Origin: Amycolatopsis thailandensis
GTDB taxonomy: Bacteria; Actinomycetota; Actinomycetes; Mycobacteriales; Pseudonocardiaceae
DNA length: 36,761 nt
NCBI RefSeq assembly: GCF_002234405.1
Contig: NZ_NMQT01000010.1
Coordinates: forward strand, 1-36,761
Direction of reading: 5' to 3'
The notes below the pieces were generated by a model. That model was not told the origin of the DNA and searched no databases. It was given only the letters and a program-made list of their open reading frames with translations. A program made the position numbers and the translations under genes. Numbering within the stretch: position 1 is the stretch's first letter; the number at the start of each line of letters is the position of its first letter. Below are positions 622-21,435 of the stretch, in pieces.

Positions 622-1209
622 CTAGGCCGAGCGGCCGAGGAAAGCCAGGAACCGGGTCTGCTGGTCCGCGCCCGGCTCGGGCTTCACCTTGGGCCCGAAG
701 GTGCCCGGCGTCCGGCTGATGATCAGCCGCGCGAGGGAGAACGACGGCTTGACGATGTCGGGCTCCATCCGTACCTCGATACCGAGCGCGGAGCCCACGT
801 CCCACGTGTGGACCAAGGTGTCGAACGTCAGCAGCGCCAGGTAGTCCGTGACAGTCGCATCAGGACGGTTGGCCGCGTACCACGCCGGGGCGGGCCGGTC
901 GAGGACGTCGCCGGTGAGGAGAGCCGCCGCCGCTTCGCGCGTCTCGCGCCATGCGACCACCGGGTCATCGCCGGCCAGTTCGCCGGGTTTCTCGGAGCCC
1001 GCCGGCCCGTTCAGCACCGTGTACTCCCGACCTGCCAGATGGTGACACAGGACTTCAAGGCTCCAGATGACGTGACCCGCCACGTCACGCACCGTCCAGT
1101 ATTCGCACGCCGACGCCGCGTCCCACCGCTCCGGTGACACCGCGGCGAGCACGGCCTCGAAGCCGTCTTGTGTCCGCTGGTAGCGGTCCAAGGTCTCGTT
1201 GGTTTCCAT
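622..1209 (-). CDS. DinB/maleylpyruvate isomerase-like protein (TIGR03086-type)
   Basis: 195 aa. The N-terminal helix carries WTVRDVAGHV (His46), followed by CHHLAG. A later helix carries DTLVHTWDVG (His134). This is the spacing of actinobacterial DinB-like four-helix-bundle proteins of the TIGR03086/mycothiol-dependent maleylpyruvate isomerase N-terminal group, in which such histidines bind a metal. These proteins are thought to be metal- and thiol-dependent transferases or isomerases, but most have no known substrate. The ATG lies 7 nt after the stop of the E1 beta gene, with AAGGA just upstream, so it is the last gene of the NRPS operon. A tailoring or self-protection role is inferred from position only. 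The family call is fairly secure; the function is not. Confidence 0.75.
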   Translation of the reverse strand: METNETLDRYQRTQDGFEAVLAAVSPERWDAASACEYWTVRDVAGHVIWSLEVLCHHLAGREYTVLNGPAGSEKPGELAGDDPVVAWRETREAAAALLTGDVLDRPAPAWYAANRPDATVTDYLALLTFDTLVHTWDVGSALGIEVRMEPDIVKPSFSLARLIISRTPGTFGPKVKPEPGADQQTRFLAFLGRSA

Positions 1210-1216
1210 GGGTTCC

Positions 1217-2200
1217 TTACTTCAACGTCGCTTTGATGGCGTCCGTCAGCTGTTCGGCACCCGGCACCAGGGCCGTGTCGAGAGCGAGGGCATACGGGAT
1301 GACGGTGCCGTCGGGACGGCAAACCCGCCTCGGCGGGGCCACCAGGTCGAACTCCTCGGCCGCCGTCGCGATGATCTCCGCTCCCAGCCCGCACATGCGG
1401 TTCGAGTCGTCGATCACGACCAGGCGCCCGGTCTTGTTCACCGATTCGCGGAGACAGTCCCAGTCGAAGGGGTAGACCGTCCTCGGGTCGACGACCTCGA
1501 TGTCGGCCCGGTCGCTGAGACTTTCGGCGACCTCCAGCGCCACGCCGACGTGCTGGCCCACCGCCACCACCGTCAGGTCGTTGCCCTCGCGGACGACGTT
1601 CGCCTCTCCCAGCGGGACGATCTCTTCTTCGCCCGCGTACGCCACATCTGTCGCGCCCAGCAAGGCCGAAGGCGCGAAGAAGGCCACCGGGTCGGGATCC
1701 TGGATCGCCGACCGCAGCAGTCCGTACGCGTCCGCGGGCAGCCCCGGGACCACCGTCTTGATCCCCGCGTGGGCGAGCAGGCTGTACGGGTTGTCCGAAT
1801 GCTGGCCCGCCCAGCCGAACCTCGACCCCGAACCCGAGATGAGATAGGTGACGGGGATCTGAACCTGCCCGCCGGTCATCAAGGAGAACTTGTGGGCCTG
1901 GTTCACGATCTGCTCGAAGACCAGGTAGATCAGCGAAGAGATCTGGTATTCGATCACGGGCTTCTTGCCGGCCATCGCCGCGCCGGTCCCGAAACTGGTG
2001 AAGGCCTGTTCCGACAGAGGCGTGTCCAGCACCCGTTCCGGGCCGAAGCTGTCCAGCAGCCCCGAGGTGACGCCACTCGCGCCGACACCGACGTCCTCGC
2101 CGAGCAGGAAGACGTCTTCGTCCGCCTTCATTTCGGCGTGCAGGGCGAGGTTCATCGCGTGCATGTAACCGAAGTTCTCCGGTGAAGGCAGCCCGCTCAC
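1217..2200 (-). CDS. 2-oxo acid dehydrogenase E1 component, beta subunit
   Basis: 327 aa, the usual length for E1 beta of pyruvate, acetoin or branched-chain 2-oxo acid dehydrogenases. Recognisable parts are FLLGEDVG, RVLDTPLSEQAFTSFGTGAA, the Gly/Ser-rich segment before AGQHSDNPYSLLAH, and the C-terminal domain with DPRTVYPFDW and VVIDDSNRMCGLGAEI. E1 alpha and beta pair to decarboxylate a 2-oxo acid on thiamine diphosphate. I chose the GTG at 2200 because it overlaps the TGA of the alpha gene (GTGA) and because FGYMHAMNLAL is the normal N-terminus. A longer frame up to 2797 only reads antiparallel into the alpha gene. No lipoyl E2 or E3 gene follows, which suggests that the acyl acceptor is not the usual one. 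Confidence 0.9.
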   Translation of the reverse strand: MSGLPSPENFGYMHAMNLALHAEMKADEDVFLLGEDVGVGASGVTSGLLDSFGPERVLDTPLSEQAFTSFGTGAAMAGKKPVIEYQISSLIYLVFEQIVNQAHKFSLMTGGQVQIPVTYLISGSGSRFGWAGQHSDNPYSLLAHAGIKTVVPGLPADAYGLLRSAIQDPDPVAFFAPSALLGATDVAYAGEEEIVPLGEANVVREGNDLTVVAVGQHVGVALEVAESLSDRADIEVVDPRTVYPFDWDCLRESVNKTGRLVVIDDSNRMCGLGAEIIATAAEEFDLVAPPRRVCRPDGTVIPYALALDTALVPGAEQLTDAIKATLK

Positions 2201-3171
2201 AGGATCACCCCCGGCCGGACAGCGGCGGTTCCCGCGTACAGGTACATGAGTGCGTCCTCCGGCTCGGGTGACGCGGCGTTCGTCGCGAACTCGACCGCCT
2301 CGTCGATGGTTTCCTTGACAGCCGCGTCGATCTCGGCGACGACGTCGGCACCCAATCGCGCGCCCAGCAACGGAATCGGGTCCCGCTCGCGCCACTGCGC
2401 CACTTCGTCGCGGTCGCGGAACTCGACCCCCAGCAGTTCGAGCACGGAGTGGTGCCCGAAGAACCGGTAGGTCCGGCATTCCAGGAACGCCGGGCCCCGG
2501 CCCGCGCGACAGCCTTCGATCAGTTCCGCCGCGGCGCCCGCCACGGCCTCGACGTCCATGCCGTCGACCGTGCGCGCGACCATCCCGAAGCCTTCGGCGC
2601 GCCGTGCCGCGCCGCCCGCGAGCCCCGATTCGAGCTTGAGGCTGGTCGCGTACATGTTGTTCTCGCAGACGAAGAGGACCGGCAGGGACCAGATCGAGGC
2701 CAGGTTGAAGGCCTCCAGCAGCACACCCTGGCTCATCGCGCCGTCGCCGAAGAAGCTGACGACGACTTCCGAGTTCCCTCGCGCCTTGGCGGCCCAAGCC
2801 GCGCCGGAGGCGATCGCGCCACCGGCCCCGACGATCCCGTTGGCGCCCAGGATGCCGAGCTTCATGTCCGCCGCGTGCATCGATCCGCCGCGGCCCTTGT
2901 TGAACCCTTCGAGGGTGCCGAGGAGTTCGGCCAGCAGACGGCGCGGGTCCGCGCCCTTCGCCAGCACGTGGCCGTGCCCCCGGTGGGTGCTGGTGATGAA
3001 GTCCCGGTCCGTCAGGTTCGAGCAGATGCCGACGGCGACGGCTTCCTGCCCGATGTACGGGTGGATCCCGCCGTTGATCTCGCCGTCGATCGCCATCGCC
3101 AGACAGCGTTCTTCGAACTCCCGGATCAGTTTCATGGACCGGTACAGGTCCCTCTGACGTTCACGGCTCAT
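2197..3171 (-). CDS. Thiamine-dependent 2-oxo acid dehydrogenase E1, alpha subunit
   Basis: 324 aa, full length. The ThDP/Mg motif starts with GDG at residues 142-144 and ends with ENN at 170-172, the correct spacing. THRGHGHVLAKG (62-73), the GRGGSMH motif (93-99) and GANGIVGAG are conserved E1 alpha segments. It supplies most of the cofactor site of an alpha2beta2 enzyme that decarboxylates a 2-oxo acid. The ATG at 3171 overlaps the TGA of the NRPS gene (ATGA), so the two are probably translationally coupled. The subfamily is closest by eye to acetoin/pyruvate E1 alpha; substrate cannot be read from sequence. Placement inside an NRPS operon suggests that it feeds an acyl unit to the pathway. 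Confidence 0.9.
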   Translation of the reverse strand: MSRERQRDLYRSMKLIREFEERCLAMAIDGEINGGIHPYIGQEAVAVGICSNLTDRDFITSTHRGHGHVLAKGADPRRLLAELLGTLEGFNKGRGGSMHAADMKLGILGANGIVGAGGAIASGAAWAAKARGNSEVVVSFFGDGAMSQGVLLEAFNLASIWSLPVLFVCENNMYATSLKLESGLAGGAARRAEGFGMVARTVDGMDVEAVAGAAAELIEGCRAGRGPAFLECRTYRFFGHHSVLELLGVEFRDRDEVAQWRERDPIPLLGARLGADVVAEIDAAVKETIDEAVEFATNAASPEPEDALMYLYAGTAAVRPGVIL

Positions 3172-6100
3172 TTCCGCAGCAGCCCTTCGTGTTCGGCGGT
3201 GGGACGGGACCGGACGAGCATTCTGTCGACGTACCGGAGCAGGGCTCCGTCGTCGGGGCTCGGCACGACGATCGGGGTGAACTCGCTGCTCGGCAGGCCG
3301 TCGCCGGAAGTGCCCGAAGTGGACTCGAAGAGCAGCTTCAGGATCGCGTGCTCCTCGGGGGAGTGCGCGTCGAGCGACGCGAGCCACTCGGCCACCGGCA
3401 GGGTGGCGAGCTCCGTCCCGGCGCTGCGCACGAGCCGCACCAGATGCGTGAGCCGGACCGGCCTGCTGCTCGCCAGCACGAACCGGCTGCCGTCCGGCTG
3501 CCGCTCGGTGCCGAGCCGGGCGAGCGCGCCCGCCGTCTCGTCCACCGCGATCCACGGTTCCTCGATCTCGGTGTCGGGCGCGGAGCCGAGTTCGAGGATG
3601 ACCCGCAGCACCCGCAGCATGATGTCCCGCGTGTTCCCCTGTCCGGTGCGCGAATCCCCGACGATCCGGGGCAGCCGGTAGATCGCGGCGGGCAGTCCGC
3701 GTTCGTACGCGGTGGTGATCAGCCGCTCGGCGTGCGACTTGGTCTCCGCGTATCCGCTGCGGGAACCGTTCTCCTCACCGGCGGAAATGGTCGACACGAA
3801 CTGCACCCGCTTGAGCCGGGTGGTGGCCGCCAGCCGGATGAGCTCGGCCGTGCCGCCCACGTTGGCGTCCGCCAACTGGTCGTAGCTGGAGAGCGCGTCG
3901 ACCCAGGCTCCGTTGTGGCAGATCAGGTCGATCTCGCCCGCGAGCCGCTCGAAGGTCTCACTGGTGAGCCCGAGGCCCGGTGCCGCGAGATCACCGACCA
4001 CTACCGTGATCCGTTCGTGGTCGACCTCGTCGGACAGGCCGTAGCGGTCGAGGTTCTCGCGCAGTCGCCGCCATCCCGCGTCTTCGTCCGCCGCCCGGAC
4101 GAGGCACTGCACGCGGCCGCCGGTCCGGGCCAGCAACTCGCGGACCAGGTACGCGCCGACGAAGCCGGTGGCGCCGGTGAGCAGGACGTCGGAGATCCCG
4201 CCGGAACCCCGAGGTGGCAACGGATCCGGGAGGACACCGCGCAGCATCGCCTCGGGATCGAACGAGCGGACGCCGGTCGTCCGCCGCTCGCCGTTGATCT
4301 CTTCCGCCAGCTTCGCGATCGTCGGCCGTTCGAACAGGGTCCGCAACGGCAGCTCGATCTGGAGTGTCTCCCCGATCCGGACGGCCAGTTGGGCGGCCTT
4401 CAGCGAATGCCCGCCGACGTCGAAGAAGCTTTCGTCCCTGCCGACGGTGTCCCGGTCGAGGACCTGGGCCCAGATCGCGGCCAAGGCCTCCTCGGTCGGG
4501 TTCCGAGGTGGGGCGAGTTCGTCCACACGGGATTCTTCGGGTTCCGGAAGCGCCTGGGTGTCCAGCTTTCCGTTGATGGTCAACGGAAGTTCGGGGAGGG
4601 ACACGAAGGCCGCGGGCACCATGTACTCGGGCAGCTCGCGTCGCAGGCGGGCACGCAGAGCGGTCTCGTCGAGAACACCCGAGACCTTGAGGTAGGCGAC
4701 AAGGCTCTTCTGCCCGGACGAGTCTTCGCGGACGACGACGGCGGCCTGCGAAATGTCCTCAGTGGACAGAAGGGTCGCCTCGATCTCCCGGGGTTCGATG
4801 CGGAAACCCCGGATCTTGACCTGGTCGTCGACGCGTCCGAGGTACTCGATGTCGCCCTGGGCGTTGTGACGGACGATGTCCCCGGTCCGATACAGCCGGT
4901 CGCTGGTGGTGTCGAAGCGGTTGGGGACGAACTGTTCCTCGGTGAGTCCCGGTTGCCTTCGATAGCCTCGCGCGACACCGGCCCCGGCCACGTGCAGTTC
5001 CCCCGGCACTCCCGTCGGGGCGAGCCTGCCCTCCTCGTCGAGGACGTACACGCGGGTGTTGCCGAGCGGGCGGCCGATGGGGATACCGGTGAGCCCGGCC
5101 GGAACCGGGGCGGGGATGGGGTGGCAGGTCGCGAACGTGGTGCATTCGGTGGGCCCGTAGCCGTTGAAGAACCGAGTACCCGGTAGAGCGTCGACGGCGC
5201 GCCGGACATGGGTGACGGACAGCGCTTCGCCGCCGACGAGCAGCTTGCGGAGTCCGGTCAGCGCCGTGACGTCCTCGTCGACGATGTGGTTGAACAACGA
5301 CGACGTCAGCCAGGCCGTGCCGATGCCGTGCCGGGTGATCGCGTTCGCCAGCGGCCGGGCCGTGAGGACCCGCTCGGTGGAGATCACGCAGGTGGCGCCG
5401 GTCAGGAGGGCGCCCCAGATCTCGAAAGTGGCGGCGTCGAAGGAGATCGCCGAGGCGTGCAGCACCACTTCGTCCGGGCCGAGGACGCCTTCCGGCAGCC
5501 CGGTGACGAGCCGGACGATCGACCGGTGCTCGATCTCGACGCCCTTGGGACGTCCGGTCGAGCCCGAGGTGTAGATGACGTAGGCCAGATCCCGCGGCCC
5601 CATCCTGGGTTCGAGCGCGGTCGACGGTTCCTCGTCGAGGGTGGGATCGCCGGTCAGATCGGTGGTGATCACCAGTTTGGCCCCGGCGTCGGCGAGCAGG
5701 AGCCGTTGGCGCTCCTCGGGGTACTCGGGATCGATCGGCAAGTACGCGGCGCCGGTCTTGAGGATCGCGAGCAAAGCGGTGATCACGCCGGCCGAACGCG
5801 GCAGGCACACTCCGATGACGGCGCCGGGACCGGCGTCCAGCGAGCGCAACCGGTGCGCGAGCCGGTTGGACCGGATGTCGAGTTCCGCGTACGTCAGGGC
5901 GTCCTCGCCGCAGACCAGGGCCGTCGCTCGCGGACGACGGCGGACCTGTTCGGCGAACAGCGCGGGCACCGTCGCCGGGGAAGGCAACGTCGTGGTCGTG
6001 TCGTTCCAGTCTTCCGTCAGCATCCGGATTTCCGGGTCGCTCATCATCGGCAACGCGGACAGTGACCGCTCCGCGTCGGCCGCGACGGACGCGAGCAGGT

Positions 6101-8000
6101 GCCGGAGGTGCCCGGTGAACCGTTCGATCGTGACCCGGTCGAACAAGGCGGCGTTGTAGTCGATCCGCGCTTCCACCACGCCGTCGCGGTCCGACACCAG
6201 GCATTCGAGGTCGAGCGGTTCCGCTTCCGTGCCGGACGGCGGAACCTCCGGCAGCGGCACGTCCACCAGCCGGAAGGCGACCTGGGTGAGGGGGTTGCGG
6301 CTGAAGTCCCGGCGGGGCACCAGTTCCTCGACGAGCCGTTCGAAGGGGACGTCCTGGTTCGCGTACGCGCCGAGCGTCGTCTCCCGCACGCGGCCCAGCA
6401 GTTCCGGGAAGGTGGGGTCGCCGGACAGATCGGTGCGCAGCACCAGCGTCTTCGCGTCGAACCCGATCGGCCCCTCCGGGCGGGTCGTGGGCGTCCCGAC
6501 CAGCACGTCGGTGGTGCGCGCGTAGCGGGACAGGACCACGTCGAAGGTCGCCAGCAGCGTCGTGAACAGGGAGACGCCGTGGCGCTCGCTCACACCGCGG
6601 AGGTCGTCGGCGACACCGGGATCCACGGTGAAGGACAGCGAATCGCCGCGGTAGGACGCCACCGGCGGGCGGGCGCGGTCCGTGGCCAGCTCCAGCGCGG
6701 CGGGCGCGTCGTCGAGCTGCTTCCGCCAGTAGTCGACCTGCCCGCGCAGGGCTTCGAAGATCGGCTCGTCGGGGTGCTGGAGCGTGTGCTCGACGAGCCG
6801 GACGAGACGGCTGACGAGCCGGGTGGCGGTGGAGCGGTCGAAGAGGCTGGACCGGAAGACCAGCGAGCCGTGCAGTTTGCCGTCCTGGACGTGGGTGACG
6901 AGCTCCAGATCGAACCGGGTGGCCACGCCCGCCCACGGCACGCTGGAGATCTCGCTTTCGCCGGAAGGCGGGATCTCTCCATTGTGGACGACCACGACGT
7001 CGAAGATCGCGTTGCGCCCGGCGTCCCGTTCGGGCCGGACCTCCGCGACCACCTGGTCGAACGGCGCCTGCTGATGCGCGTAGGCGTCGACCATCTTCGT
7101 GCGGGCCACCTTCAGCAGCTCGCGGAACGTCATCGACGGGGTGATGTGCGCGCGCAGCACCACGGTGTTCACGAAGAAGCCGAGGACGTCGGCGAACCGG
7201 CGGTCGTCGCGACCGGCCAGCACCGTGCCGATCGTGATGTCCTCCTGTCCCGAATGGAGGGACAACAGCGCCTGGAACACCGCGGCCACCGCGCTGGAGA
7301 GCGCGCACCGGTTCCGCAGGGCGAACGCGGAGAAGGCCTTGGTGAGCTCGGCGGGGAGCTCGAAATCGACGTGGTCGCCCGCGAAACCGGGATTGCCCGA
7401 ACGCGGCCTGTCCGTCGGCAGCCGCAGCGGCTGGAAACCGTCGAGCTCCCGCCGCCAGTAGTCGAGGTGGTCCGCCACGGAGCCGGTGCCGGCGCGCTGC
7501 GCCGCGACGAACTCCTCGTACGTCACATCGAGCGCCGCGGGCGTCTCCGACCGGTACAGCGTGACGACGTCCTCGGTCACGATCTGGATGGACCGGCCGT
7601 CGGTGATGATGTGGTGGTTCACCAGGCACAGCACCGCCGAACCGTCGGCGCATTCGACGACCATCGCGCGGATGGGCGGCGCGGCCGCGAGATCGAACGG
7701 TTCGCTGACCAGGTCGGCCGTGTGCTTCTGCCACTCGTGCTCGCCGGGGCCCGCGGTCCGCCGCGCCACCGGGATCCGGAAGTCCGGCGCCGGCACGGCG
7801 GTGGGGGTGCCCGATCCGTCCACGACGAACCGCCACCGGAGCACCGGGTGACGCTCGACGAGCGCGCCGAGCGCCCGGTCGAGGGCCTCGAAGTCGACGC
7901 CGTCGTGGAACCGGAAGACGATCGGAATGTTGTACGCGGCGCTGGTCCGGTCGAGTTGCTGCACCAGCCAGAGCCGCTCCTGCCCGAGCGACAACCTCAT
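3168..8000 (-). CDS. NRPS: C - partial C - A(Val-like) - T - reductase
   Basis: 1610 aa. A complete condensation domain (about 1-415, HHIITDG at 129-135) is followed by a second, incomplete one (about 420-655) that starts at the DYWRKQL region and has only the C-terminal lobe with no HHxxxDG. Then come an adenylation domain (about 675-1150; YTSGSTGRPKG 810-820, NGYGPTE 946-952, Lys1145 in NGKLD), a carrier domain (Ser1199 in GGHSL) and a terminal NAD(P)H thioester reductase (about 1268-1605; GATGFVG, STIS, YAETK). The ten pocket residues (855, 856, 859, 897, 921, 923, 947, 955, 956, 1145) read DAFWLGGTFK, close to published valine codes. The enzyme should join an incoming acyl or aminoacyl group to an aliphatic residue and release it as an aldehyde or alcohol. 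Start ATG at 8000 has AAAGGAG 7-13 nt upstream; the reading frame extending to 8126 overlaps the upstream gene and is not used. Confidence 0.93.
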   Translation of the reverse strand: MRLSLGQERLWLVQQLDRTSAAYNIPIVFRFHDGVDFEALDRALGALVERHPVLRWRFVVDGSGTPTAVPAPDFRIPVARRTAGPGEHEWQKHTADLVSEPFDLAAAPPIRAMVVECADGSAVLCLVNHHIITDGRSIQIVTEDVVTLYRSETPAALDVTYEEFVAAQRAGTGSVADHLDYWRRELDGFQPLRLPTDRPRSGNPGFAGDHVDFELPAELTKAFSAFALRNRCALSSAVAAVFQALLSLHSGQEDITIGTVLAGRDDRRFADVLGFFVNTVVLRAHITPSMTFRELLKVARTKMVDAYAHQQAPFDQVVAEVRPERDAGRNAIFDVVVVHNGEIPPSGESEISSVPWAGVATRFDLELVTHVQDGKLHGSLVFRSSLFDRSTATRLVSRLVRLVEHTLQHPDEPIFEALRGQVDYWRKQLDDAPAALELATDRARPPVASYRGDSLSFTVDPGVADDLRGVSERHGVSLFTTLLATFDVVLSRYARTTDVLVGTPTTRPEGPIGFDAKTLVLRTDLSGDPTFPELLGRVRETTLGAYANQDVPFERLVEELVPRRDFSRNPLTQVAFRLVDVPLPEVPPSGTEAEPLDLECLVSDRDGVVEARIDYNAALFDRVTIERFTGHLRHLLASVAADAERSLSALPMMSDPEIRMLTEDWNDTTTTLPSPATVPALFAEQVRRRPRATALVCGEDALTYAELDIRSNRLAHRLRSLDAGPGAVIGVCLPRSAGVITALLAILKTGAAYLPIDPEYPEERQRLLLADAGAKLVITTDLTGDPTLDEEPSTALEPRMGPRDLAYVIYTSGSTGRPKGVEIEHRSIVRLVTGLPEGVLGPDEVVLHASAISFDAATFEIWGALLTGATCVISTERVLTARPLANAITRHGIGTAWLTSSLFNHIVDEDVTALTGLRKLLVGGEALSVTHVRRAVDALPGTRFFNGYGPTECTTFATCHPIPAPVPAGLTGIPIGRPLGNTRVYVLDEEGRLAPTGVPGELHVAGAGVARGYRRQPGLTEEQFVPNRFDTTSDRLYRTGDIVRHNAQGDIEYLGRVDDQVKIRGFRIEPREIEATLLSTEDISQAAVVVREDSSGQKSLVAYLKVSGVLDETALRARLRRELPEYMVPAAFVSLPELPLTINGKLDTQALPEPEESRVDELAPPRNPTEEALAAIWAQVLDRDTVGRDESFFDVGGHSLKAAQLAVRIGETLQIELPLRTLFERPTIAKLAEEINGERRTTGVRSFDPEAMLRGVLPDPLPPRGSGGISDVLLTGATGFVGAYLVRELLARTGGRVQCLVRAADEDAGWRRLRENLDRYGLSDEVDHERITVVVGDLAAPGLGLTSETFERLAGEIDLICHNGAWVDALSSYDQLADANVGGTAELIRLAATTRLKRVQFVSTISAGEENGSRSGYAETKSHAERLITTAYERGLPAAIYRLPRIVGDSRTGQGNTRDIMLRVLRVILELGSAPDTEIEEPWIAVDETAGALARLGTERQPDGSRFVLASSRPVRLTHLVRLVRSAGTELATLPVAEWLASLDAHSPEEHAILKLLFESTSGTSGDGLPSSEFTPIVVPSPDDGALLRYVDRMLVRSRPTAEHEGLLRK

Positions 8001-8011
8001 CGATTTCTCCT

Positions 8012-9997
8012 TTATCCGGCGTTCGCTCGTCGGGCGGCGGCCTCGCGGTCCGTCGCGGCTTCGATCAGGGCCTTTTCGTCGGCTTTCCCGTTGCGGGTGA
8101 GCGGGATCTCGTCGACGACCACCCACAGGGCGGGTAACGCGTAGCTCGGGAGCTGCTGTGCCAGGAACGCCCGCAGGGAACGGGGTTCCGTGTCCTCGCC
8201 GGGGTTCACCACGATGGCCGCCACGAGCTGGGGGCTTTGGCCCGGTTGCCTGGCGACCACGATCACGGCGTCGCGGATGCCTGGGTGACGGGCGAGGATG
8301 GCGCCGATCTCCTCGGTTTCAATGCGATGGCCGTCGAGTTTGATCTGCTTGTCCGCGCGGCCGAGGAAGAGCACGTCGCCGTTCGGGTCGAGCCGGACCA
8401 GATCGCCGGTGCGGTACAGGCGTTCGTCCACGTCCGGCGAGAAGTGGCCGAACCGTTCGTTCGTTTCGGCCTCGTCGTCGAGATAGCCGTCGGCCAGCCC
8501 CGATCCGGACGTGTACAGCTCACCGATCGCGCCCGGCGGGACGAGCCGGGCGTTCCGGTCGAGCACGAAGACCTTGGTGCCCGCGATCGGCTTGCCGATG
8601 GGGAGCGGGCCGGTGATCTCCGTGCTGTCCCGCACGGTGTGCGTGGTGGTGAACGTGGTGTTCTCGGTGGGCCCGTAGCCGTTCGTGATCACCAGCCCGG
8701 GGTAGGACCCGAGCACCCGCGCCGCCGCGTCGTGGGGGACGACCTCACCGCCGCTCAGGAGCCAGCGGAGCCCGGCGAGGGTCTGCGGCCGGGACTTGAC
8801 GACCAGCCGGAACAGGCTGGCGGTCAGCCAGGCGACCGAGATCTTCCGCTCGGTGAAGAACTTTTCGAGCTTCCTCACCGACGGGAGCCGTCCGGGGAAG
8901 GCCTCCAGCGTCCCGCCGTTGAGCAACGTCACCCAGATCTCGTACGTCGACGCGTCGAACGCCAGCGGCGCCATCCGCAGCACGTGGTCACCGGGACGCG
9001 TGCGGAGTTCCGTCGTCCGCGCGAGCCGCGTCACCGCGCGATGCGGGACGACGACACCCTTCGGTTCACCGGTGGATCCGGAGGTGAACGCGACGTACGC
9101 GGTCCTTTGTGGATCGTCGTGGCCGGGAGACGGCGGCTCCGCGTCCGCGTCGATTTCTTCCCCGGGGAGCCAGGAATCGACACGGGCGAGGTCACTCAAG
9201 GTGGGATGGCCCGCCGCGGCGGCGTCGACCACGGCGGCCGCGGGGGCCAGCTTGCCGATGATCCTCGCCAACCGGGCTTCGGGCGCGTCGTCGTCGAATC
9301 CCGCGTAGGCGGCGCCCGCCCGGATGATCCCGAGCAGCGCCACGATCTCGCCGACGGACCTCCGGGTCGCGACGAGCACCGTGTCACCGGGCCGCACCCC
9401 GGCACGCCGCAGCACCTCGGCGTACCGATCGGCGGCCGACGCGAGCTGCCCGTAGGTCAGCTCGGCGCCCGCGTCACGGACCGCGACCTCCCTCGGGCGG
9501 AGCCGCACCTGCTCCAGGAACAGGGTTTCGATGTCGGCGTCAGGGGTGTCTTCGCCTGCCAGCGCGTCGAGGATCCGGCGGCGTTCCGGCGCGATGCAGC
9601 GCACGTCTTCGAGGAGACCGTCGAAGGAGAGCAGCTCGTCCACCGCGGTGGCGACGTCGGCGACGAACCCGTGCGCGGCGTCCGGCACCTCGGTGACGAA
9701 GCGGACCTCCCCGGACCGCAGATCCTTGTGCAGGGAGGACAGCACGAGATCCACCGGCCCGTCTTCGATGACGCCGATCGGATGGACCGACTCCAGGAAG
9801 CCGCCGACGAGCGCCCGGTCGTCGACCCGGACCCGGATCACCCTGCCCGCGACCGAGATCGCGGCCTCGTCCGCCGCGGTCCACCGGCACAGCGTGACCG
9901 CGAAGGCGGCCAGCACCAGCTTCGCGCGGTTGTACTCGGAGGTCTCGGCCGCGAGCCCGGTCTTCAGGTCGTAGGGGGCCGTGAGTGCGTCATGCAT
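8012..9997 (-). CDS. Stand-alone NRPS adenylation protein (Val-like)
   Basis: 661 aa, longer than a bare adenylation domain. Residues about 150-650 form a full A domain: FTSGSTGEPKG (304-314), NGYGPTENTTF (439-449), YRTGDLV (528-534), GRADKQIKLDGHR (546-558) and Lys638 in NGKAD. Pocket residues 348, 349, 352, 390, 414, 416, 440, 448, 449 and 638 read DAYWLGGTFK, again a small aliphatic, valine-like code. Residues 1-150 resemble a shrunken condensation-domain C-lobe: AKLVLAAFAVTLCRW looks like the core helix, and ERRRILDAL like the usual C-A linker. It has no carrier domain, so it must load one in trans, most simply the discrete carrier protein at 12399-12662. The ATG at 9997 overlaps the P450 stop by 8 nt; the NRPS gene starts 11 nt after its stop. 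Confidence 0.92.
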   Translation of the reverse strand: MHDALTAPYDLKTGLAAETSEYNRAKLVLAAFAVTLCRWTAADEAAISVAGRVIRVRVDDRALVGGFLESVHPIGVIEDGPVDLVLSSLHKDLRSGEVRFVTEVPDAAHGFVADVATAVDELLSFDGLLEDVRCIAPERRRILDALAGEDTPDADIETLFLEQVRLRPREVAVRDAGAELTYGQLASAADRYAEVLRRAGVRPGDTVLVATRRSVGEIVALLGIIRAGAAYAGFDDDAPEARLARIIGKLAPAAAVVDAAAAGHPTLSDLARVDSWLPGEEIDADAEPPSPGHDDPQRTAYVAFTSGSTGEPKGVVVPHRAVTRLARTTELRTRPGDHVLRMAPLAFDASTYEIWVTLLNGGTLEAFPGRLPSVRKLEKFFTERKISVAWLTASLFRLVVKSRPQTLAGLRWLLSGGEVVPHDAAARVLGSYPGLVITNGYGPTENTTFTTTHTVRDSTEITGPLPIGKPIAGTKVFVLDRNARLVPPGAIGELYTSGSGLADGYLDDEAETNERFGHFSPDVDERLYRTGDLVRLDPNGDVLFLGRADKQIKLDGHRIETEEIGAILARHPGIRDAVIVVARQPGQSPQLVAAIVVNPGEDTEPRSLRAFLAQQLPSYALPALWVVVDEIPLTRNGKADEKALIEAATDREAAARRANAG

Positions 9998-11201
9998 CGG
10001 CCTTGCGCTCCAGCCGGACGTGAAGGTGATCGGGGCGCCGGAAGATGTGGCCCCGCTCCCGCAGCCGCCAGAAACCCTGCCGGATGCCGTCGAGCGAACC
10101 GCCGAGCCGGACGCCGCCGAACCGGTGCGACAACCGCTCGAACAGCGTGTCGAACTCCGCCAGAGCCAGCTGGATGCCCAGGCAGGTGTGCGGGCCCGCC
10201 GAGAACGCCAGCAGGCGCTGGTCGGTGCGGTCCGGGCGCCAGCTGTCCGGGTCCTCGAACGCGTTCTCGTCGCGGCTGGCGCTGCCCAGGGACAGCAGCA
10301 GCGCGGACCGGCGCGGGATGTCCACCCCGTGGAGGTTCAGGTCGGTGGTCGCGTACCTGAGGATGGTGTGGCTCGGCGGTTCCCACCGCAGCGTCTCGCG
10401 GACGACCTGGGTCCGGTAGTCCTTGTCCGCCAGCGTCGACAGCTCGACGTCGTGCGCCAGGACGGCGTACATGATCTTGCCGATGGTGGCGACGCTCGTC
10501 TCGGTGCCGGCCAGCAGGAATAGCGTGGCCGTGCCCAGCATGGACTCGTCGACCGGTTCGCCCGGCGGGAAGACGAGGTCGAGGAACGGCATCCGGTCGC
10601 CGTCGGCGCGGGCGGCGAGCTTGTCCTTCAGGTACTCGATCAGCTCCGCCTTGGCCGTGAGCGCCGAGTCCAGCGAGGTCGCCGGGAACTCGATCGCGCC
10701 CGCCAGCGGGAGGACCCGGGGACGCAGCCACGCCGCGTCTTCCGGCGGCAGGCCGAACAGCCGGGTGACCATCGCGTAGGGCACCCCGACGGCGACCCGC
10801 TCCATGAACTCGACGTCGACCTCGTCCCGGGACCCCATCTCGGCCTCGATCGAGTCGAGCACCTGGTCCACCGCGGGGACGAGGATCTCGGTGCGCAGCC
10901 GTTTCACCGAACCGCCCGCGAACAGCGGCATGAACAGCTTGCGCAGATCACGGTGCCGCGGGCCGTCGGTGTCGAGCAGCGTCCGGCCGAACAACCGGCG
11001 GCTGCTGCGCATCGGGAACCCGCTGCCGACCTGCCGGTCCGACAGCAGCTCCTGGACGTCCTCGAACCGCGTGATCAGGAAGGCGTTGAAGGCCGACGAC
11101 CAGTGCACCGGGTCCGATCGCCGGAGTTCCTTGTAGATGTTCCAGGGGTCGGCGAGGAATTCGTCCGAACTGAAGTCGAGACTTACCTTCGTGGGACTCA
11201 T
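9990..11201 (-). CDS. Cytochrome P450 monooxygenase
   Basis: 403 aa, a soluble bacterial class I P450. The I-helix oxygen-activation motif is AGTETS (231-236), the K-helix ExxR is ETLR (269-272), and the heme-ligand loop is FSAGPHTCLG with Cys340 as the thiolate ligand. It needs ferredoxin and ferredoxin reductase, which are not encoded in the window. The ATG at 11201 overlaps the stop of the preceding monooxygenase (ATGA). Much longer frames extending to 12257 run over that gene in another frame and are artefacts. In this operon it probably hydroxylates or further oxidises the NRPS product or a carrier-bound aminoacyl group; the two cannot be told apart from sequence. Confidence 0.95.
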   Translation of the reverse strand: MSPTKVSLDFSSDEFLADPWNIYKELRRSDPVHWSSAFNAFLITRFEDVQELLSDRQVGSGFPMRSSRRLFGRTLLDTDGPRHRDLRKLFMPLFAGGSVKRLRTEILVPAVDQVLDSIEAEMGSRDEVDVEFMERVAVGVPYAMVTRLFGLPPEDAAWLRPRVLPLAGAIEFPATSLDSALTAKAELIEYLKDKLAARADGDRMPFLDLVFPPGEPVDESMLGTATLFLLAGTETSVATIGKIMYAVLAHDVELSTLADKDYRTQVVRETLRWEPPSHTILRYATTDLNLHGVDIPRRSALLLSLGSASRDENAFEDPDSWRPDRTDQRLLAFSAGPHTCLGIQLALAEFDTLFERLSHRFGGVRLGGSLDGIRQGFWRLRERGHIFRRPDHLHVRLERKADA

Positions 11202-12346
11202 TTGTCGCCTCCGTTGCCGACCAGCTCGGTCCGGGACTTCAATTGGCGGGCGGCTTCTTCGGAAGTGAGCCGGATGGACTCCGCGGTGCCCTCGAACCCG
11301 CCGACGAGGGTGGGCACGATCTCGTGCGCGATCGTCGTCAGCTGATCGAGGGTCGCTCGGTGCGAGACCCACCGGGGGACGAAGAAGTTCAGCGAGACCG
11401 GGTCGCCGACACGATCCATCAGGTCGCGGATCCGCTCGGCGCAGGTCGCGGCGTCCCCGACGATGAACCCGCCCGTGTCGACGAGGTTCTGCAGGGTCTT
11501 GCGGTGCGCGACCGGGGAGTCCGGGATGGGCATGCCCAGGGTGTTCCGGTACAGGCCGCGGCGCAGCGCTGAGAAACCCTCCAGCAGTTCTTCGACACCG
11601 GCGGCGGGGGAGTCGGCGACGTGGACGAAGACGTTGCACCGGATCCGGGTGCCGCCCGCGGATTTGTTCCGGTAGGACTCGACCCGCTCGATCAGCGCGC
11701 CGACCGGATCCGGGTCCATCCCGGGCCGGATGGAACCCCACGGCGGTGCCACGTGGACGGTCGGGGTCGTCGCGGTGTCCGTCAGGAGTTCGATACCGGC
11801 AGGGCTCAGCGAAGACGCGACAACGGTTTCGATGGCGCCGGGGCCCCTGAGCGGCTGGAGCTGAAGCACGGCCTTTTTCACGCTGAACCACGGAGTCGTG
11901 GTGTTGACCGTCTCGCCGTTGAGGAGCGCTTGCACCGTGCCCAGCGCGGCGCGGAAATGATCGCGGACCGAGGCCGGATCCACCCCGATCATCTCCATGT
12001 CGTGCACGTAGGTGCCCGTTCCGACGCCCAGGATCGCCCGGCCCGCGCTGAGGTGATCGAGCAGCACGATCCGCTCCGCGACATGCAGGGGGTGGTGATA
12101 GGGCAGCGGGATCACGCCGGTGGCGAACCGGATGCGGCGGGTTTCCCGCGCCAGCGCCGCCATCAGCATTTCCGGGGAGCTGAGCGTGCTCCAGCCGCTG
12201 GAGTGGTGCTCGCCGAGCCAGATCTCGTCGAAACCCAGGTCGTCGGCGACGCCGCACACTTCGATGTCGCGGTGCAGCGACGCGTGGGGGCTGACCGAGG
12301 GGTCGTGGAACGGGGGCAGGAAGAGGCCGAATGCCTTGGTGTCCAT
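11198..12346 (-). CDS. Luciferase-like flavin monooxygenase (LLM family)
   Basis: 382 aa, single (beta/alpha)8 barrel of the bacterial luciferase/F420-or-FMN family. Diagnostic parts are the N-terminal strand FGLFLPPFHDP, LGFDEIWLGEHH (about 38-49), RIRFATGVIPLPYHHPLHVAERI and the phosphate-binding region LSAGRAILGVGTG. Several NRPS clusters use such proteins as MupA- or SnaA-like hydroxylases acting on carrier-bound substrates; whether this one uses FMNH2 or F420 cannot be seen. ATG at 12346 has AAAGGA about 9 nt upstream. It starts 52 nt after the carrier-protein gene and overlaps the P450 by 4 nt. Two oxygenases in one operon imply at least one N- or C-oxidation or an oxidative aromatisation. 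Confidence 0.9.
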   Translation of the reverse strand: MDTKAFGLFLPPFHDPSVSPHASLHRDIEVCGVADDLGFDEIWLGEHHSSGWSTLSSPEMLMAALARETRRIRFATGVIPLPYHHPLHVAERIVLLDHLSAGRAILGVGTGTYVHDMEMIGVDPASVRDHFRAALGTVQALLNGETVNTTTPWFSVKKAVLQLQPLRGPGAIETVVASSLSPAGIELLTDTATTPTVHVAPPWGSIRPGMDPDPVGALIERVESYRNKSAGGTRIRCNVFVHVADSPAAGVEELLEGFSALRRGLYRNTLGMPIPDSPVAHRKTLQNLVDTGGFIVGDAATCAERIRDLMDRVGDPVSLNFFVPRWVSHRATLDQLTTIAHEIVPTLVGGFEGTAESIRLTSEEAARQLKSRTELVGNGGDK

Positions 12347-12398
12347 GGTGATCCTTTGTCTGTGGAGGAATTCGCTGTCGGCGGACGACGGTGCCGGC

Positions 12399-12662
12399 TC
12401 AGGCCGAAGGCACCTGTTCCAGCAGGTAGTCGCAGAACTTGTCCACAGTGGTCAGATCCTCGTTCTCTTCGAGGTCGATGAACACGTCGAGCTTCGTTTC
12501 GATCTTCTCGATGAGCGCCAGGTACTCGATCGAGCTCATGCCCGTCTCGGGAAACTCGGTGTCCGCCTCGATGGTCTGGTTTTCCAGAACGCCGCCTGCG
12601 ACTTCGGACAGGAGGGAGAAGATCTGCTGACGTAGTTCCGCCCGCGCGTCTACCGCGTTCAT
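12399..12662 (-). CDS. Discrete acyl/peptidyl carrier protein
   Basis: 87 aa, the size of a free carrier protein. The phosphopantetheine attachment sequence is ETGMSSIEYL with Ser44 as the likely modified residue; Ser43 takes the place of the common Asp of the GxDSL motif. The C-terminal half is acidic (EKIETKLDVFIDLEENEDL), typical of carrier proteins. ATG at 12662 follows AAAGGGG with good spacing, so the longer frame to 12728 is not needed. It is the first gene of the operon. It is probably charged by the stand-alone adenylation protein, or possibly by the E1 pair, and is the natural donor to the first condensation domain of the NRPS. Confidence 0.9.
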   Translation of the reverse strand: MNAVDARAELRQQIFSLLSEVAGGVLENQTIEADTEFPETGMSSIEYLALIEKIETKLDVFIDLEENEDLTTVDKFCDYLLEQVPSA

Positions 12663-12979
12663 GTTTCCCCTTTGATCGAATCTGCGCCGGATGAGGGCAT
12701 GCAGACGAGTCCGGAATAGTGTTTTCACTGCGGGTGAGGTCGGCGAAAAGTGGATCAGCGGTTTCCGGTGATTCCTGCCGACGTGCCCCAGATGCCCGTC
12801 AGTGCGGGCGAGTTCGCACTATTCTGACCCGAGCCGCCTACGGTTCGCAACAGTCCGCGTCACCGGTTTTTCCGGATTCCCCGGCCGTTCGCGGCACAGG
12901 GAACACGCACAAAAGAAGGGGACTTTCCTCATGCGGAAAGTCCCCTTCAGGTCAAGAGATCCGGTGGTGCCCGGTCGGT
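12663..12979. promoter_or_regulatory. Leader/promoter region of the NRPS operon
   Basis: 317 bp without a gene, between the start of the carrier-protein gene and the end of the StrR-like gene. It holds a hairpin near its right end (12915-12948) and must hold the operon promoter. I could not find a convincing -35/-10 pair. GTTCGC occurs at 12812, 12843 and 12887, resembling a StrR half-site, but no full StrR inverted repeat is visible. Confidence 0.5.
12915..12948. terminator. Perfect 14-bp hairpin after the StrR-like gene
   Basis: Arms GAAGGGGACTTTCC (12915-12928) and 12935-12948 pair without mismatch around a 6-nt loop. It lies about 30 bp past the stop of the StrR-like gene. It should form in RNA from either strand, followed by TTTTG on the minus strand, so it is a likely terminator separating regulator and operon. 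Confidence 0.7.
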
Positions 12980-13987
12980 TCAGCGACGGCGCTTCTGCAG
13001 CAGTTCCACGAACTGCCGCCAATCCTCCGCTCGCGCCTTGGCGAGTTCGGAGATCAACTCCAGCCGGTGTTCGGGGATGTTCCTGGCGACCTGATCCCAC
13101 TGATCACGATCGTTCAGATGCCCGTCCAGCAACCGAACCAGGGTCCGTCCCGATTCGGTGTAGCGGATGGTGGGGTCGGAGCGGAGCCGTTCCACCGCCG
13201 CTTGGTTGTCGGCGATCTGCGCGCTCGCGAGGTCGACGGCGTCGGCCTGCCGGGGGCGCGGCCTCGTCACCGTGCGTGCCGGTTCCTCGCGGCGGCCATG
13301 CCGGTGCCGGACGTCGTGCGCGGTCGCGACGGAAACGCCCGCGCCGCGCGCGATTTCGCGGATCGAGGCGGTGGGGTTGCTCGCGATCAATTCGTGGGCG
13401 CGCCGCCTGCCCTGGGCCGGATCCAGCGCACGGACGCGTCCGTCGCGGCCGATGTGGGCGTTCGGCTGGGGAACTTCCCCAGTCGAACGGCGTACCTTGC
13501 CGACCGTCTTGTGGGACAGGCCGGTGACCGCGGCGATGGCGCGATCGGACCACTGGGGGCGGACTTCGAGGATCCGGCGGGCGGCGGTCTTGCGGTCGGC
13601 GAGGGAGAGCGGCAGGCCATGGGTGATGTTCGACTTCACCGCGAGGATGAAGGCGGCCTGGTCGTCCCCGTCGAAGAACCGCGCGTCGATCGCGACGGCG
13701 TTCTTCAGCTTGGCCGCCTGGAGCCGGTGCAGCCCGTCGATCACCCGCATCGTGGGACGGTGCACCAGGATCGGCGGCAGCGGGGCGTCCGTTTCGGCGA
13801 GCATCCGGGCGTGGGCGGGATCGACTCCCGCCGCCCTCGGGGAGTCTTCGGCGCACAGCGTGTCGAGCGGTACCTCGACGACCTCGCCCAACGGCGGATC
13901 CGAGCCGGCCGCCACCCAGTCACTTTCCCGTCTGGCCACGGGTATCTGTGCGTCGTCCACCTGTTTTTCCTTGTGCCAGTTCAACAT
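12980..13987 (-). CDS. StrR/Bbr-like pathway-specific transcriptional activator
   Basis: 335 aa, the normal length for StrR, Bbr and Tei15*-type activators. Residues about 35-110 form a ParB/Srx-like domain (VPLDTL, LPPILVHRPTMRVIDGLHR, LKNAVAIDARFFDGDDQAAF). SNITHGLPLSLADRKTAA leads into a first helix-turn-helix (SDRAIAAVTGLSHKTVGKVR), and a second helix-turn-helix-like segment follows (SIREIARGAGVSVATAHDV). StrR proteins bind GTTCGActG-N11-CagTCGAAC and switch on antibiotic clusters. A matching site lies 114 nt upstream of its own start, so it is probably autoregulated. It reads in the same direction as the NRPS operon and is its likely activator. Family call firm; the target is inferred from proximity. 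Confidence 0.9.
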   Translation of the reverse strand: MLNWHKEKQVDDAQIPVARRESDWVAAGSDPPLGEVVEVPLDTLCAEDSPRAAGVDPAHARMLAETDAPLPPILVHRPTMRVIDGLHRLQAAKLKNAVAIDARFFDGDDQAAFILAVKSNITHGLPLSLADRKTAARRILEVRPQWSDRAIAAVTGLSHKTVGKVRRSTGEVPQPNAHIGRDGRVRALDPAQGRRRAHELIASNPTASIREIARGAGVSVATAHDVRHRHGRREEPARTVTRPRPRQADAVDLASAQIADNQAAVERLRSDPTIRYTESGRTLVRLLDGHLNDRDQWDQVARNIPEHRLELISELAKARAEDWRQFVELLQKRRR

Positions 13988-18183: not shown

Positions 18184-19485
18184 TCAGGTTGCCGGCTTCA
18201 TTCTGCTCAATGCATCGTTCAGGACGTTCGAAGGAGGCCTGAAGAAGTCGCCCAGTTCGGTGCGGCCCGCCGACTCGTCCGGCTCGGCCGCGATGTGGCC
18301 TGCCGCGCCATGCATGCTCCGGGCCATATATATGACCTTCTGGGCGCCATTGGCGGCTGGAGTGTCCTCCAGAGCGACCTCGTCACGGATGCCTTCGGCC
18401 TCCCTCTGGCAGTTCGCCGCCTCGGCTTCGCTCTTGGCGGCGTTGTCGGTGTACGTCGAGCTCTGTGAATCAAGATCCTGAACCATCTTGGTCAAGGCGT
18501 CGATCGTGCGAGTCTCCACGGAACCGGACCTCATTTCATCGATCACCACGAGCCACGGGGCGACGATGGCCGCGGCGGCGACGAGCAGCCCGAGCACCCA
18601 GCCGAGCAACGGCTGGTGGATCTTTTCCGCTTCCTCGACCACGCGGGTGAGAATCGAGAATCCGCTGAGGACGCTGACCACGCCGAGACTGACCATCTTG
18701 GCTTTCAGCATCAGTCGGGGCGCCGGGAACTCACCGTTCGTTGCGGTGAGAGCCTGCTGCTGTTCACCTTGTTCTCCTTCGTCCTGCCCAGGATCGTCCC
18801 GCTGAGGGGTGTCCAGCTCGTTCGTGGTGACTCTCGACTGCCACACCTGGTGGCCTGTCGAGTGCGCGAGCTGGCCGAGCACCAATGCTGCGATGGCGGA
18901 GAACCCGCCTGTGATCGCGAGGTCCTTGAGCTCCGGAGCGCTGAGGTCGACGTTGAAGACCGTGCTGAAGACGGAGAACAGAGCGATGATGTCCACCCCG
19001 AGCAGACCGTAGGCCGTCGCCCTACGAACCTTTGACGGCGAGTCGAGATGTCGGGTACCACCACGCTCGATGTCCGCCTTCACCTTGGCTCGCTGTTCGG
19101 CGAGAAGACTGCGTGCCTCGGCCAGGGGGAGCGGTGGGATCACGATCGAGTTCGTCCGTGTCGGTGGAGTGCACAGGCGGTCGTGCAGCTCTGTGGCCAG
19201 GCGCCGTTCGCGCTTCGCGGCGTCGAGCGCGGCCTGCTGCCGCTTGTGTAACAGGTTGATCTTTCGCAGTGCTTGTTTGGCTTGCTTTCTGCTCATTTCG
19301 ATAGCGCGGTTGCCCGCAGTTCTTTCCCCGTTCGTCAGCGAGTTCGGGTCCCGCTCGATCTGGTTCTGCCGAAACGCCTCGCGGACAAGGAACATGATCC
19401 AGTACGCCTGGATCGGGTGACGGATCCAGAACCACAGGCTCAACCGTGGGAGTTGGTTCATCTTGACGTTCAATGTCATGTTCAT
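18184..19485 (-). CDS. Multi-spanning membrane protein with coiled coils, function unknown
   Basis: 433 aa, no family recognised. Residues about 18-35 (LWFWIRHPIQAYWIMFLV) are hydrophobic, followed by a long charged helical region (about 40-145) that looks like a coiled coil (KQAKQALRKINLLHKRQQAALDAAKRERR). Two hydrophobic segments follow at about 160-205. An acidic Gln/Glu-rich linker (DDPGQDEGEQGEQQQ) leads to two more at about 262-315, then a second helical region with TRTIDALTKMVQDLDSQSS. ATG at 19485 overlaps the stop of the OmpA-domain lipoprotein gene by 4 nt, so the two products are likely partners at the membrane. GC content appears lower than in the flanking genes. Confidence 0.7.
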   Translation of the reverse strand: MNMTLNVKMNQLPRLSLWFWIRHPIQAYWIMFLVREAFRQNQIERDPNSLTNGERTAGNRAIEMSRKQAKQALRKINLLHKRQQAALDAAKRERRLATELHDRLCTPPTRTNSIVIPPLPLAEARSLLAEQRAKVKADIERGGTRHLDSPSKVRRATAYGLLGVDIIALFSVFSTVFNVDLSAPELKDLAITGGFSAIAALVLGQLAHSTGHQVWQSRVTTNELDTPQRDDPGQDEGEQGEQQQALTATNGEFPAPRLMLKAKMVSLGVVSVLSGFSILTRVVEEAEKIHQPLLGWVLGLLVAAAAIVAPWLVVIDEMRSGSVETRTIDALTKMVQDLDSQSSTYTDNAAKSEAEAANCQREAEGIRDEVALEDTPAANGAQKVIYMARSMHGAAGHIAAEPDESAGRTELGDFFRPPSNVLNDALSRMKPAT

Positions 19486-20648: not shown

Positions 20649-21435
20649 GCCCCGAAAGGCGTATGGACATTGCTCAGCGTTACATTGTTCATCCTTATGG
20701 CCGACAGGTAGCGCATGACACAGACGATTTCCGTGCAAGGTGGAAGTCGCAGTGCTCCATTCGGGTTCCCGGCTGTCCTGCTCGAACGCGGATAGGGCGT
20801 GAACGTGCTGTGGTTCTTCGGGTTCTGGTCAGAACCAGTGTTGACGATGCTTCCAACTTGGACGAGCAACTGGCCGTTGTCTCGTCAAAGGAAACGATCT
20901 CGACGCGGTAGTCCTACATGGTGAAACCTTGTCGAGAAAACGGTAATTCGACCGGACTCGCACCTGTTTCTTGCTCTTGAGGGCACGAACGGGCGAACAG
21001 TTGATCGCCGCCCGTGACCAGCCAAGGGCATCCGCGACGATGAGTTCGGCGAGATAGTCTACTGCGAGTGCAGAAGCCTCTGTCAGGCGGTCTTATTCGA
21101 ACCGAAACCAAGTCCTGGTTAGGAAATCCCGCAGGATCTTGACGTAGAGTACCAATAGGACGCCGCACAACAACTTGCGGTCGCTCGGTCATTTACGGAT
21201 ACCGCCACGTCCTGGCGCCGCCGAGAGTGGCGGCTAGATCCGCGCCCACGGCTCGCCGGACACGATCCAGGAAACTGCTCAACAGTGTTCCAGGAGCATT
21301 CTGTTAGGATTCCAAACTCGACGTCGTCACCATCGGTATCGCGGCCCGTCGACCATACCAGCAGCTTCTGACAATTCATGCGCTACGGCATCGTTCAGCC
21401 TTACCAGTGCCACGATGGTGATCGTGCACCGAAGG
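20649..21435. other. Gene-poor region
   Basis: 787 bp with no gene I can support. Base composition is visibly less GC-rich than the rest. A small frame at 20914-21192 (minus) has no ribosome binding site and no recognisable content. A 7-bp stem, CCGCCAC (21202-21208) with GTGGCGG (21227-21233), is the only structure I noted. The promoter for the leftward OmpA-domain gene must lie in its left part. Confidence 0.5.

Follow-up and report, generated by a model that had tools for sequence, protein, structure and literature searches.

A conserved eight-gene synthetase operon of Amycolatopsis thailandensis with a reductase domain and an orphan E1 pair: a candidate route to a peptidyl acyloin

What does a nonribosomal peptide synthetase that ends in a reductase domain make when its operon also encodes both subunits of a ThDP-dependent E1 enzyme? 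The question is raised by a locus in the window (i.e. the whole stretch of 36,761 nucleotides of A. thailandensis DNA that was analyzed). The answer we favor, at roughly 45% and thus a little short of an even chance, is a Val-Val dipeptide that, its first Val likely oxidized on a free carrier protein, is released as an aldehyde and then undergoes E1 carboligation to an acyloin.

Gene content and conservation of the operon

Eight genes, all intact and open, occupy 622-12662 on the minus strand, where the initial annotation had placed them. They are given here with two features upstream of them.

622..1209, minus strand: DinB/MDMPI-like protein (PF11716, 47.9 bits; PF12867, 33.7 bits)
1217..2200, minus strand: ThDP-dependent E1 beta (PF02779 and PF02780)
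2197..3171, minus strand: ThDP-dependent E1 alpha (PF00676, 220.8 bits)
3168..8000, minus strand: C-C'-A-T-R synthetase, 1610 aa, code DAFWLGGTFK; domains on the same strand at ~7994-6759 (C), ~6758-6051 (C', a half domain), ~5957-4566 (A), ~4487-4299 (T), and ~4187-3327 (R)
8012..9997, minus strand: stand-alone adenylation protein A (AMP-binding)
9990..11201, minus strand: cytochrome P450, 403 aa (PF00067, 88.3 bits; FSAGPHTCLG, AGTET)
11198..12346, minus strand: LLM flavin monooxygenase, 382 aa (PF00296, 148.5 bits)
12399..12662, minus strand: free-standing carrier protein T, 87 aa (PF00550, 27.6 bits; Ser in TGMSSIEYLA)
12915..12948, minus strand: terminator-like hairpin of 14 pairs, between T and the regulator-like gene
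12980..13987, minus strand: regulator-like gene upstream of T, outside the conserved eight; no Pfam match

In the same order, the Pfam assignments of the eight genes are MDMPI_N/DinB_2; Transket_pyr and Transketolase_C; E1_dh; Condensation(2)-AMP-binding-PP-binding-NAD_binding_4; AMP-binding; p450; Bac_luciferase; and PP-binding. The starts of E1 alpha (3171) and E1 beta (2200) are corrected coordinates, based on 4-nt overlaps and the first Met. Overlaps are present at four of the seven junctions (4 nt at LLM/P450, 8 nt at P450/A, and 4 nt each at C-C'-A-T-R/E1 alpha and E1 alpha/E1 beta), and at the remaining junctions the genes are separated by 52, 11, and 7 nt; the earlier wording that "nearly all" genes are joined by 4-8-nt overlaps is right for those four but too strong for the whole. 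The identical eight genes, in the same order and on the same strand, occur in all 12 other loci read, from soil bacteria (nine from Amycolatopsis, two from Allokutzneria, and one from Nocardia), indicating that this is not a chance set. None of the titles and abstract openings listed by PubMed Central searches, a scope without subscription papers, MIBiG, or antiSMASH, describes the gene set, and in a plasmid collection the best identities for LLM and E1 alpha were below 60%.

The gene at 12980..13987 looks like a regulator of the ParB/StrR type. Seven of the nine Amycolatopsis loci have a full-length relative and an eighth has a partial relative; no relative was found at the ninth, in either Allokutzneria, or in Nocardia panacis, where only 495 bases lie upstream. 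A search for a StrR-like site upstream of T gave a best match of 11/18, nothing notable. In the stricter of two flank comparisons, one Amycolatopsis locus (L122), both Allokutzneria loci, and the Nocardia locus had no flanking ORF common to at least two other loci. In the looser one, the two Allokutzneria loci had flanks in common with each other, as did L122 and N. panacis (rho on one side, rpmE and prfA on the other). Because the latter are housekeeping genes, they mark the place of insertion rather than additional pathway genes.

The proposal that the stand-alone A protein, the free carrier, and C-A-T-R form a single A-T-C-A-T-R line over three proteins is supported, and this line is spread over three separate genes, rather than carried on a single polypeptide, in all 13 clusters. 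We compared the condensation domains in 22 sequences, i.e. the window and P0001-P0021, a protein set that overlaps the cluster loci and in which P0001 is 99% identical to the window and the Rhodococcus orthologs P0019 and P0021 are known as proteins only. Among the proteins listed, no E1 was seen next to either Rhodococcus ortholog. The first C domain has HHxxxDG in 22/22; C', by contrast, corresponds to no more than a condensation domain's C-terminal lobe, and HHxxxD is missing from it in 22/22. The R domain scores above the TIGR01746 cut-off (272.3 versus 213.35 bits), as expected of a terminal thioester reductase, and has the Tyr and Lys of the SDR motif in 13/13 clusters.

The predicted valine starter and its probable oxidation

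Pocket codes were extracted by alignment. The stand-alone A protein has DAYW[L/V]GGTFK in 13/13 clusters; the synthetase has DAFWLGGTFK in 13/13 clusters and in 19 of the 21 proteins P0001-P0021, the two Rhodococcus proteins having DAFWLGATFK. DAFWLGGTFK and DAYWWGGTFK are tabulated as Val in PMC9113097. Judged by these codes, both A domains carry predicted Val-type pockets. A fold search with a model of pLDDT 65.5 suggests that the first ~140 residues of A may resemble a shortened condensation C-terminal lobe; hhalign of this N terminus against condensation domains was not significant.

The Ser motif of T is found in all 13 clusters and in a sister cluster from another genome (G966), as are FSAGPHTCLG and AGTET of the P450. 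The best NCBIfam match of T is an acyl carrier protein, at 26.2 bits and thus under the cut-off of 66. LLM falls under the cut-off of every NCBIfam model among the 25 matches listed, and its identities, among the 120 matches listed, reach down to 50% and then fall to ~35%. LLM relatives of 51-53% identity in Nocardia occur together with a free carrier and an AMP-ligase at each of four loci. The G966 sister cluster has the order T-LLM-P450-A (57, 71, 75, and 66% identity, respectively; A code DAYWVGGTFK), followed by C-A-T-C-T-TE; its second A code differs, and the line ends in a thioesterase. Searched by tblastn, 39 kb of this locus gave no match to either E1 subunit, the DinB-like protein, or the R part, and the whole genome gave no E1 alpha at E <= 1e-105; across the order of G966, the count for E1 alpha was 0/35 in a search run without a positive control. 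Thus, A, the free T, and the oxygenases stand together independently of the remaining line in the one sister cluster read fully (1/1).

In the initial annotation, both oxygenases act on the completed product. This view is not supported: T-LLM-P450-A recurs as a unit in a cluster whose second A code differs and whose line ends in a thioesterase. Because the unit recurs there without E1, R, or DinB, LLM and the P450 probably oxidize the carrier-bound first valine instead, a conclusion drawn from gene content; the exact role of each is a guess. In the route we propose, the stand-alone A protein would load Val onto free T, as its pocket code and the gene set suggest, and LLM and the P450 would act on Val-S-T. 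The T-LLM-P450-A cassette would then be a transferable module for an oxidized valine starter.

The E1 pair and the possible fate of the predicted aldehyde

E1 alpha scores 306.8 bits against TIGR03182, under the equivalog cut-off of 393.85. Aligned to human E1 alpha (1ni4_A), it retains GDG...NN and the His of the GH loop, and E1 beta, aligned to 1ik6_A, retains a Glu and a His that we take to be catalytic; the ThDP/Mg motif and catalytic residues, as we assign these roles, are therefore present. No E2 gene was seen in any of the 13 clusters, compared with 58 of 75 loci of related E1 genes and 32 of the 36 related loci with at least 20 kb of sequence. The cluster flanks read for E2 span 3-5 kb, and the window ends 621 bases beyond the DinB gene, so an E2 gene farther away would be missed. 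In the A. thailandensis genome, the three other strong E1_dh matches each have an E2 match 0.5-1.8 kb off; in one case (C101), the two share one 1243-residue frame. A housekeeping E2 might still serve the cluster pair, since E1 beta retains, toward its C-terminal end, a PDG stretch that presumably lies in the region of E2 contact. The loop of E1 alpha is of the HHSVLE type in the clusters (one of the 13 rows is empty through a start-extension artefact), whereas the 12 commonest forms among the relatives at the loci are mostly GHxxGD-like, with some AHxEGM. However, 106 E1 alpha relatives of 58-67% identity, including ones from Streptomyces, Kitasatospora, and Nonomuraea, often have variants of the HH form as well, and the loop is thus no proof of a new acceptor. 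The pair looks to have been recruited from central metabolism.

That E1 alpha/beta acylates the free carrier or, via a housekeeping E2, CoA is distinctly unlikely. Glycolyl loading in the tetrahydroisoquinoline antibiotics would be the model, the E1 fold and cofactor residues are intact, and the free carrier resembles, under cut-off, acyl carrier proteins. However, the absence of E2 from 13/13 clusters speaks against it, as does the sister cluster, which shares the T-LLM-P450-A unit but has no E1 match, so that T seems to need no E1.

The two stand-alone E1 alpha proteins of the genome are 31% identical to cluster E1 alpha, a value that rules out a recent duplicate of the housekeeping E1. Highly improbable, too, is a role of the pair in self-resistance, as the copy of a 2-oxo acid dehydrogenase that the product inhibits. 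Such a copy would be expected to function with the housekeeping complex; the cluster pair is this distant and has no E2 partner gene. On the other side, clusters can hold resistance genes that are homologs of genes in the targeted pathway, as described in PMC12947280 for inhibitors of branched-chain amino acid biosynthesis.

We favor acyloin formation because the last domain of the synthetase, R, is of the kind that makes aldehydes and because E1 alone is known to couple pyruvate to aldehydes: according to PMC7696235, E. coli PDH E1 by itself forms acyloins, with pyruvate or 2-oxobutyrate as donor and with acceptor aldehydes of the linear, branched, or hydroxy type. Further, in azinomycin biosynthesis AziC5/C6 adds two carbons to an aldehyde (PMC9570651). 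In our scheme, the N-terminal C domain of C-C'-A-T-R would join the oxidized Val to the second Val, and the dipeptide would leave the R domain as an aldehyde. E1 alpha/beta would decarboxylate a 2-oxo acid, tentatively pyruvate, and transfer the resulting acyl anion to this aldehyde; Val*-Val-CH(OH)-CO-CH3 is the likely product. That an orphan PDH-type pair turns the R-domain aldehyde into a peptidyl alpha-hydroxyketone, and so couples release to C-C bond formation, we regard as possible rather than probable.

In the main rival, which we consider rather unlikely, the aldehyde closes on the N-terminal amine and, as for AusA, a pyrazinone or dihydropyrazinone of Val-Val results; the two oxygenases would act on either the starter or the product, and the E1 pair and the DinB-like protein would have minor tasks. 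The Val-type A domains, the C and T domains, and an R domain above cut-off are consistent with it. Of the NCBIfam models, that of AusA ranks first for the synthetase, but the score is far below the NF047350 cut-off (869.3 versus 2500 bits; 346.4 bits for stand-alone A). Further, oxidation of the first-Val amine, if it occurs, would hinder ring closure, and two ThDP genes kept in 13/13 clusters are left without a task. The original pyrazinone or peptide-aldehyde assignment thus stands as to the split line, the Val pockets, and the R domain, yet is incomplete, since a plain pyrazinone needs neither the E1 pair nor the DinB-like protein.

The DinB-like protein lies above the TIGR03086 cut-off (94.6 versus 83 bits). 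In the alignment, H46, D130, and H134 are invariant in 13/13, with a spacing that we take to be that of the metal triad of the DinB/MDMPI fold. It is possibly a metal or mycothiol enzyme; our guess is that it acts late, in tailoring or self-protection.

Overall, acyloin formation, if true, would be a new ending for peptide assembly lines, in which aldehyde release is followed by ThDP carboligation, and would yield an unfamiliar kind of peptide product. Peptidyl ketones are related to known protease-inhibitor warheads. PubMed Central searches found no instance of this release-and-extend logic, for the testing of which the compact eight-gene set, kept across genera, would serve.

Comparison with known systems

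AusA (A-T-C-A-T-R) uses two amino acids, the first Val-type, and releases an aldehyde reductively on the way to the aureusimine pyrazinones. The cluster is predicted to have these features in common with it but differs in that the first module is divided between two free proteins, A and T, the second A is Val-type, and a half C domain, two oxygenases, the E1 pair, and the DinB gene are added. In NovH/NovI, a stand-alone A and a carrier serve amino acid oxidation by a P450. Likewise, an amino acid is likely oxidized on a carrier by a P450 in the cluster, which differs in its additional LLM oxygenase, its Val-type A, and its free, unfused carrier. With the E1 of pyruvate and acetoin dehydrogenases, the cluster pair shares fold, ThDP motif, and alpha/beta organization; unlike them, it has no E2 gene in the 13 stretches read, an E1 alpha under the TIGR03182 cut-off, and an altered loop. 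Finally, AziC5/C6 is also a two-component ThDP enzyme, and it extends an aldehyde that an earlier step of its pathway supplies (PMC9570651), but it is called a transketolase and acts on N-acetyl-glutamate semialdehyde, whereas in the cluster the subunits are of PDH type and accompany the R domain of an NRPS.

Gene content, distribution and borders of the cluster

The eight genes of the initial annotation lie on the minus strand, running from 12662 to 622; their positions were borne out, as were the domains named for them (Pfam and NCBIfam searches). They were also said to be joined almost throughout by short overlaps; four junctions do overlap by 4-8 nt, whereas 52, 11 and 7 nt separate the genes at the other three. 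The contig of 36761 bases is the entire window (genome of 9.35 Mb in 421 contigs), and the view past the DinB-like gene stops at the contig end at base 1. Positions 1-620 carry interspersed repeats with the core GTGAAGG...CCTTCAC, including a 29-nt unit in six copies and repeat pairs of 110 nt (92% identity) and 95 nt (95%), to which the assembly break is possibly due. Elsewhere in the window, 19482-20738 encodes a protein with an OmpA-type domain (PF00691, 31.3 versus 27.2 bits) in an actinomycete, adjoined by a 433-aa protein that has no Pfam match.

Of 390 genomes searched from the family, 12 (own genome counted) had a match to the LLM monooxygenase at E <= 1e-120, as did 4 of 397 from the order, none of them new. 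At E <= 1e-90 it was found in 2 of 394 genomes of the class (own genome counted) and in 5 of 150 genomes of the genus of G079. We read 11 other loci from the family and that of Nocardia panacis (L016, also numbered L139), and all 12 have the eight genes in identical order and strand. A protein search listed 21 synthetase orthologs, with identity falling from 99% to 66% and two in Rhodococcus; a protein deposited under Amycolatopsis thailandensis is 99% identical to the window's synthetase.

A flank comparison found no ORF common to two or more other loci for L122 (Amycolatopsis, genome G012), the two Allokutzneria loci or the Nocardia locus. In a looser, pairwise recheck, the Allokutzneria loci share flanks with each other, and L122 and Nocardia panacis likewise have flanks in common, namely rho beyond the DinB-like gene and, beyond T, rpmE and prfA. 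The interval between rho and rpmE-prfA thus looks like an insertion place common to both genera; a rho relative (65.5%) also lies in the window at 33683-35671, 21 kb from the cluster. Such neighbours aside, no ninth pathway gene was seen beside the cluster, and we take these eight genes as the unit.

The region upstream of the cluster

Features upstream of the cluster
12980-13987, minus strand: regulator-like gene
12915-12948, minus strand: terminator-like hairpin, AAGGGGACTTTCC, after the regulator-like gene
13460-13488, inside the regulator-like gene: StrR-like near-palindrome of 29 bp, 17 of 18 specified consensus positions

The regulator-like gene is full in seven of the nine other Amycolatopsis loci and partial in one. 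The palindrome was present in all eight sequences compared (the window and 7/7 other Amycolatopsis loci), matching the consensus at 16-18 of 18 positions; when the window was shuffled 40 times by mononucleotide, no match exceeded 14 of 18. This suggests an autoregulated, StrR-type regulator. Upstream of T, a six-sequence alignment shows a conserved TGTTGC followed about 20 nt on by ACAAT or AGAAT, at which a promoter scan gave no match.

Predicted valine activation and the starter cassette

In 13/13 clusters, residues taken from alignment give the pocket code DAYW[L/V]GGTFK for the stand-alone A protein and DAFWLGGTFK for the synthetase A domain. PMC9113097 assigns Val to DAFWLGGTFK and DAYWWGGTFK, and the assembly line is predicted from these codes to join Val to Val.

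Genome G966 contains a sister cassette of T, LLM, P450 and A genes (57%, 71%, 75% and 66% identity to those of the window), followed by a C-A-T-C-T-TE synthetase whose first C domain is 69% identical to the window's. The starter code recurs in the stand-alone A of G966 as DAYWVGGTFK, while the A domain downstream carries a different one, DAFWWGAAFK. No E1, R or DinB match was found in 39 kb of sequence at this locus, and no E1 alpha in the genome at E <= 1e-105. We read the sister cluster as a second product type from the same starter cassette. An aminotransferase-like gene also follows the C-A-T-C-T-TE synthetase there (L127/L128). Six further synthetases (P0058, P0068, P0088, P0097, P0101 and P0113) have a similar N-terminal C domain (66-71% over 26% of the window's protein); their first A varies, and their second A has a code that we take to be Ser-type. 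For four of the six, the longest contig listed is equal in length to that of an LLM protein of 71-74%, which suggests that the two may share a contig. These synthetases point in the same direction as G966. In four of four Nocardia loci (L135-L138), an LLM relative of 51-53% is likewise accompanied by an AMP-ligase and a free carrier; these loci also carry class II aldolase-like, nitroreductase-like and acyl-CoA dehydrogenase genes and represent another carrier-based pathway. For the cluster, the simplest reading is that carrier-bound Val would be oxidised ahead of condensation.

The E1 pair and the proposed product

Among the best 80 of 133 E1 relatives from a collection scan, 75 lie outside this cluster type, and an E2 gene was within the stretch read for 58 of these; among the 36 loci read over 20 kb or more, 32 had one. 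No E2 gene was found within the stretch read in any of the 13 cluster loci. In the window's own genome, an E2 match lies 0.5-1.8 kb from each of the three other strong E1_dh matches. The catalytic residues of the E1 pair are kept in alignments. The E1 alpha loop, whose counterpart in human E1 carries the phosphorylation site, reads TYRFFGHHSVLELLGVEFRD here (12 of the 13 clusters compared) versus mostly GHxxGD-like in the loci relatives, but HH-form variants are common among 106 E1 alpha relatives of 58-67%.

From its R domain, the gene directly upstream of the E1 pair is predicted to make an aldehyde. According to the main rival, a dipeptide aldehyde would close to a Val-Val pyrazinone, as with AusA, an outcome that we consider rather unlikely. 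We favour an acyloin, which would form if the E1 pair, without E2, passed an acyl anion to that aldehyde. We propose this because the R domain predicted to make the aldehyde is upstream and because E1 alone can acylate aldehydes: as described in PMC7696235, E. coli PDH E1 without E2 transfers the acyl anion to an aldehyde, with pyruvate or 2-oxobutyrate as donor.
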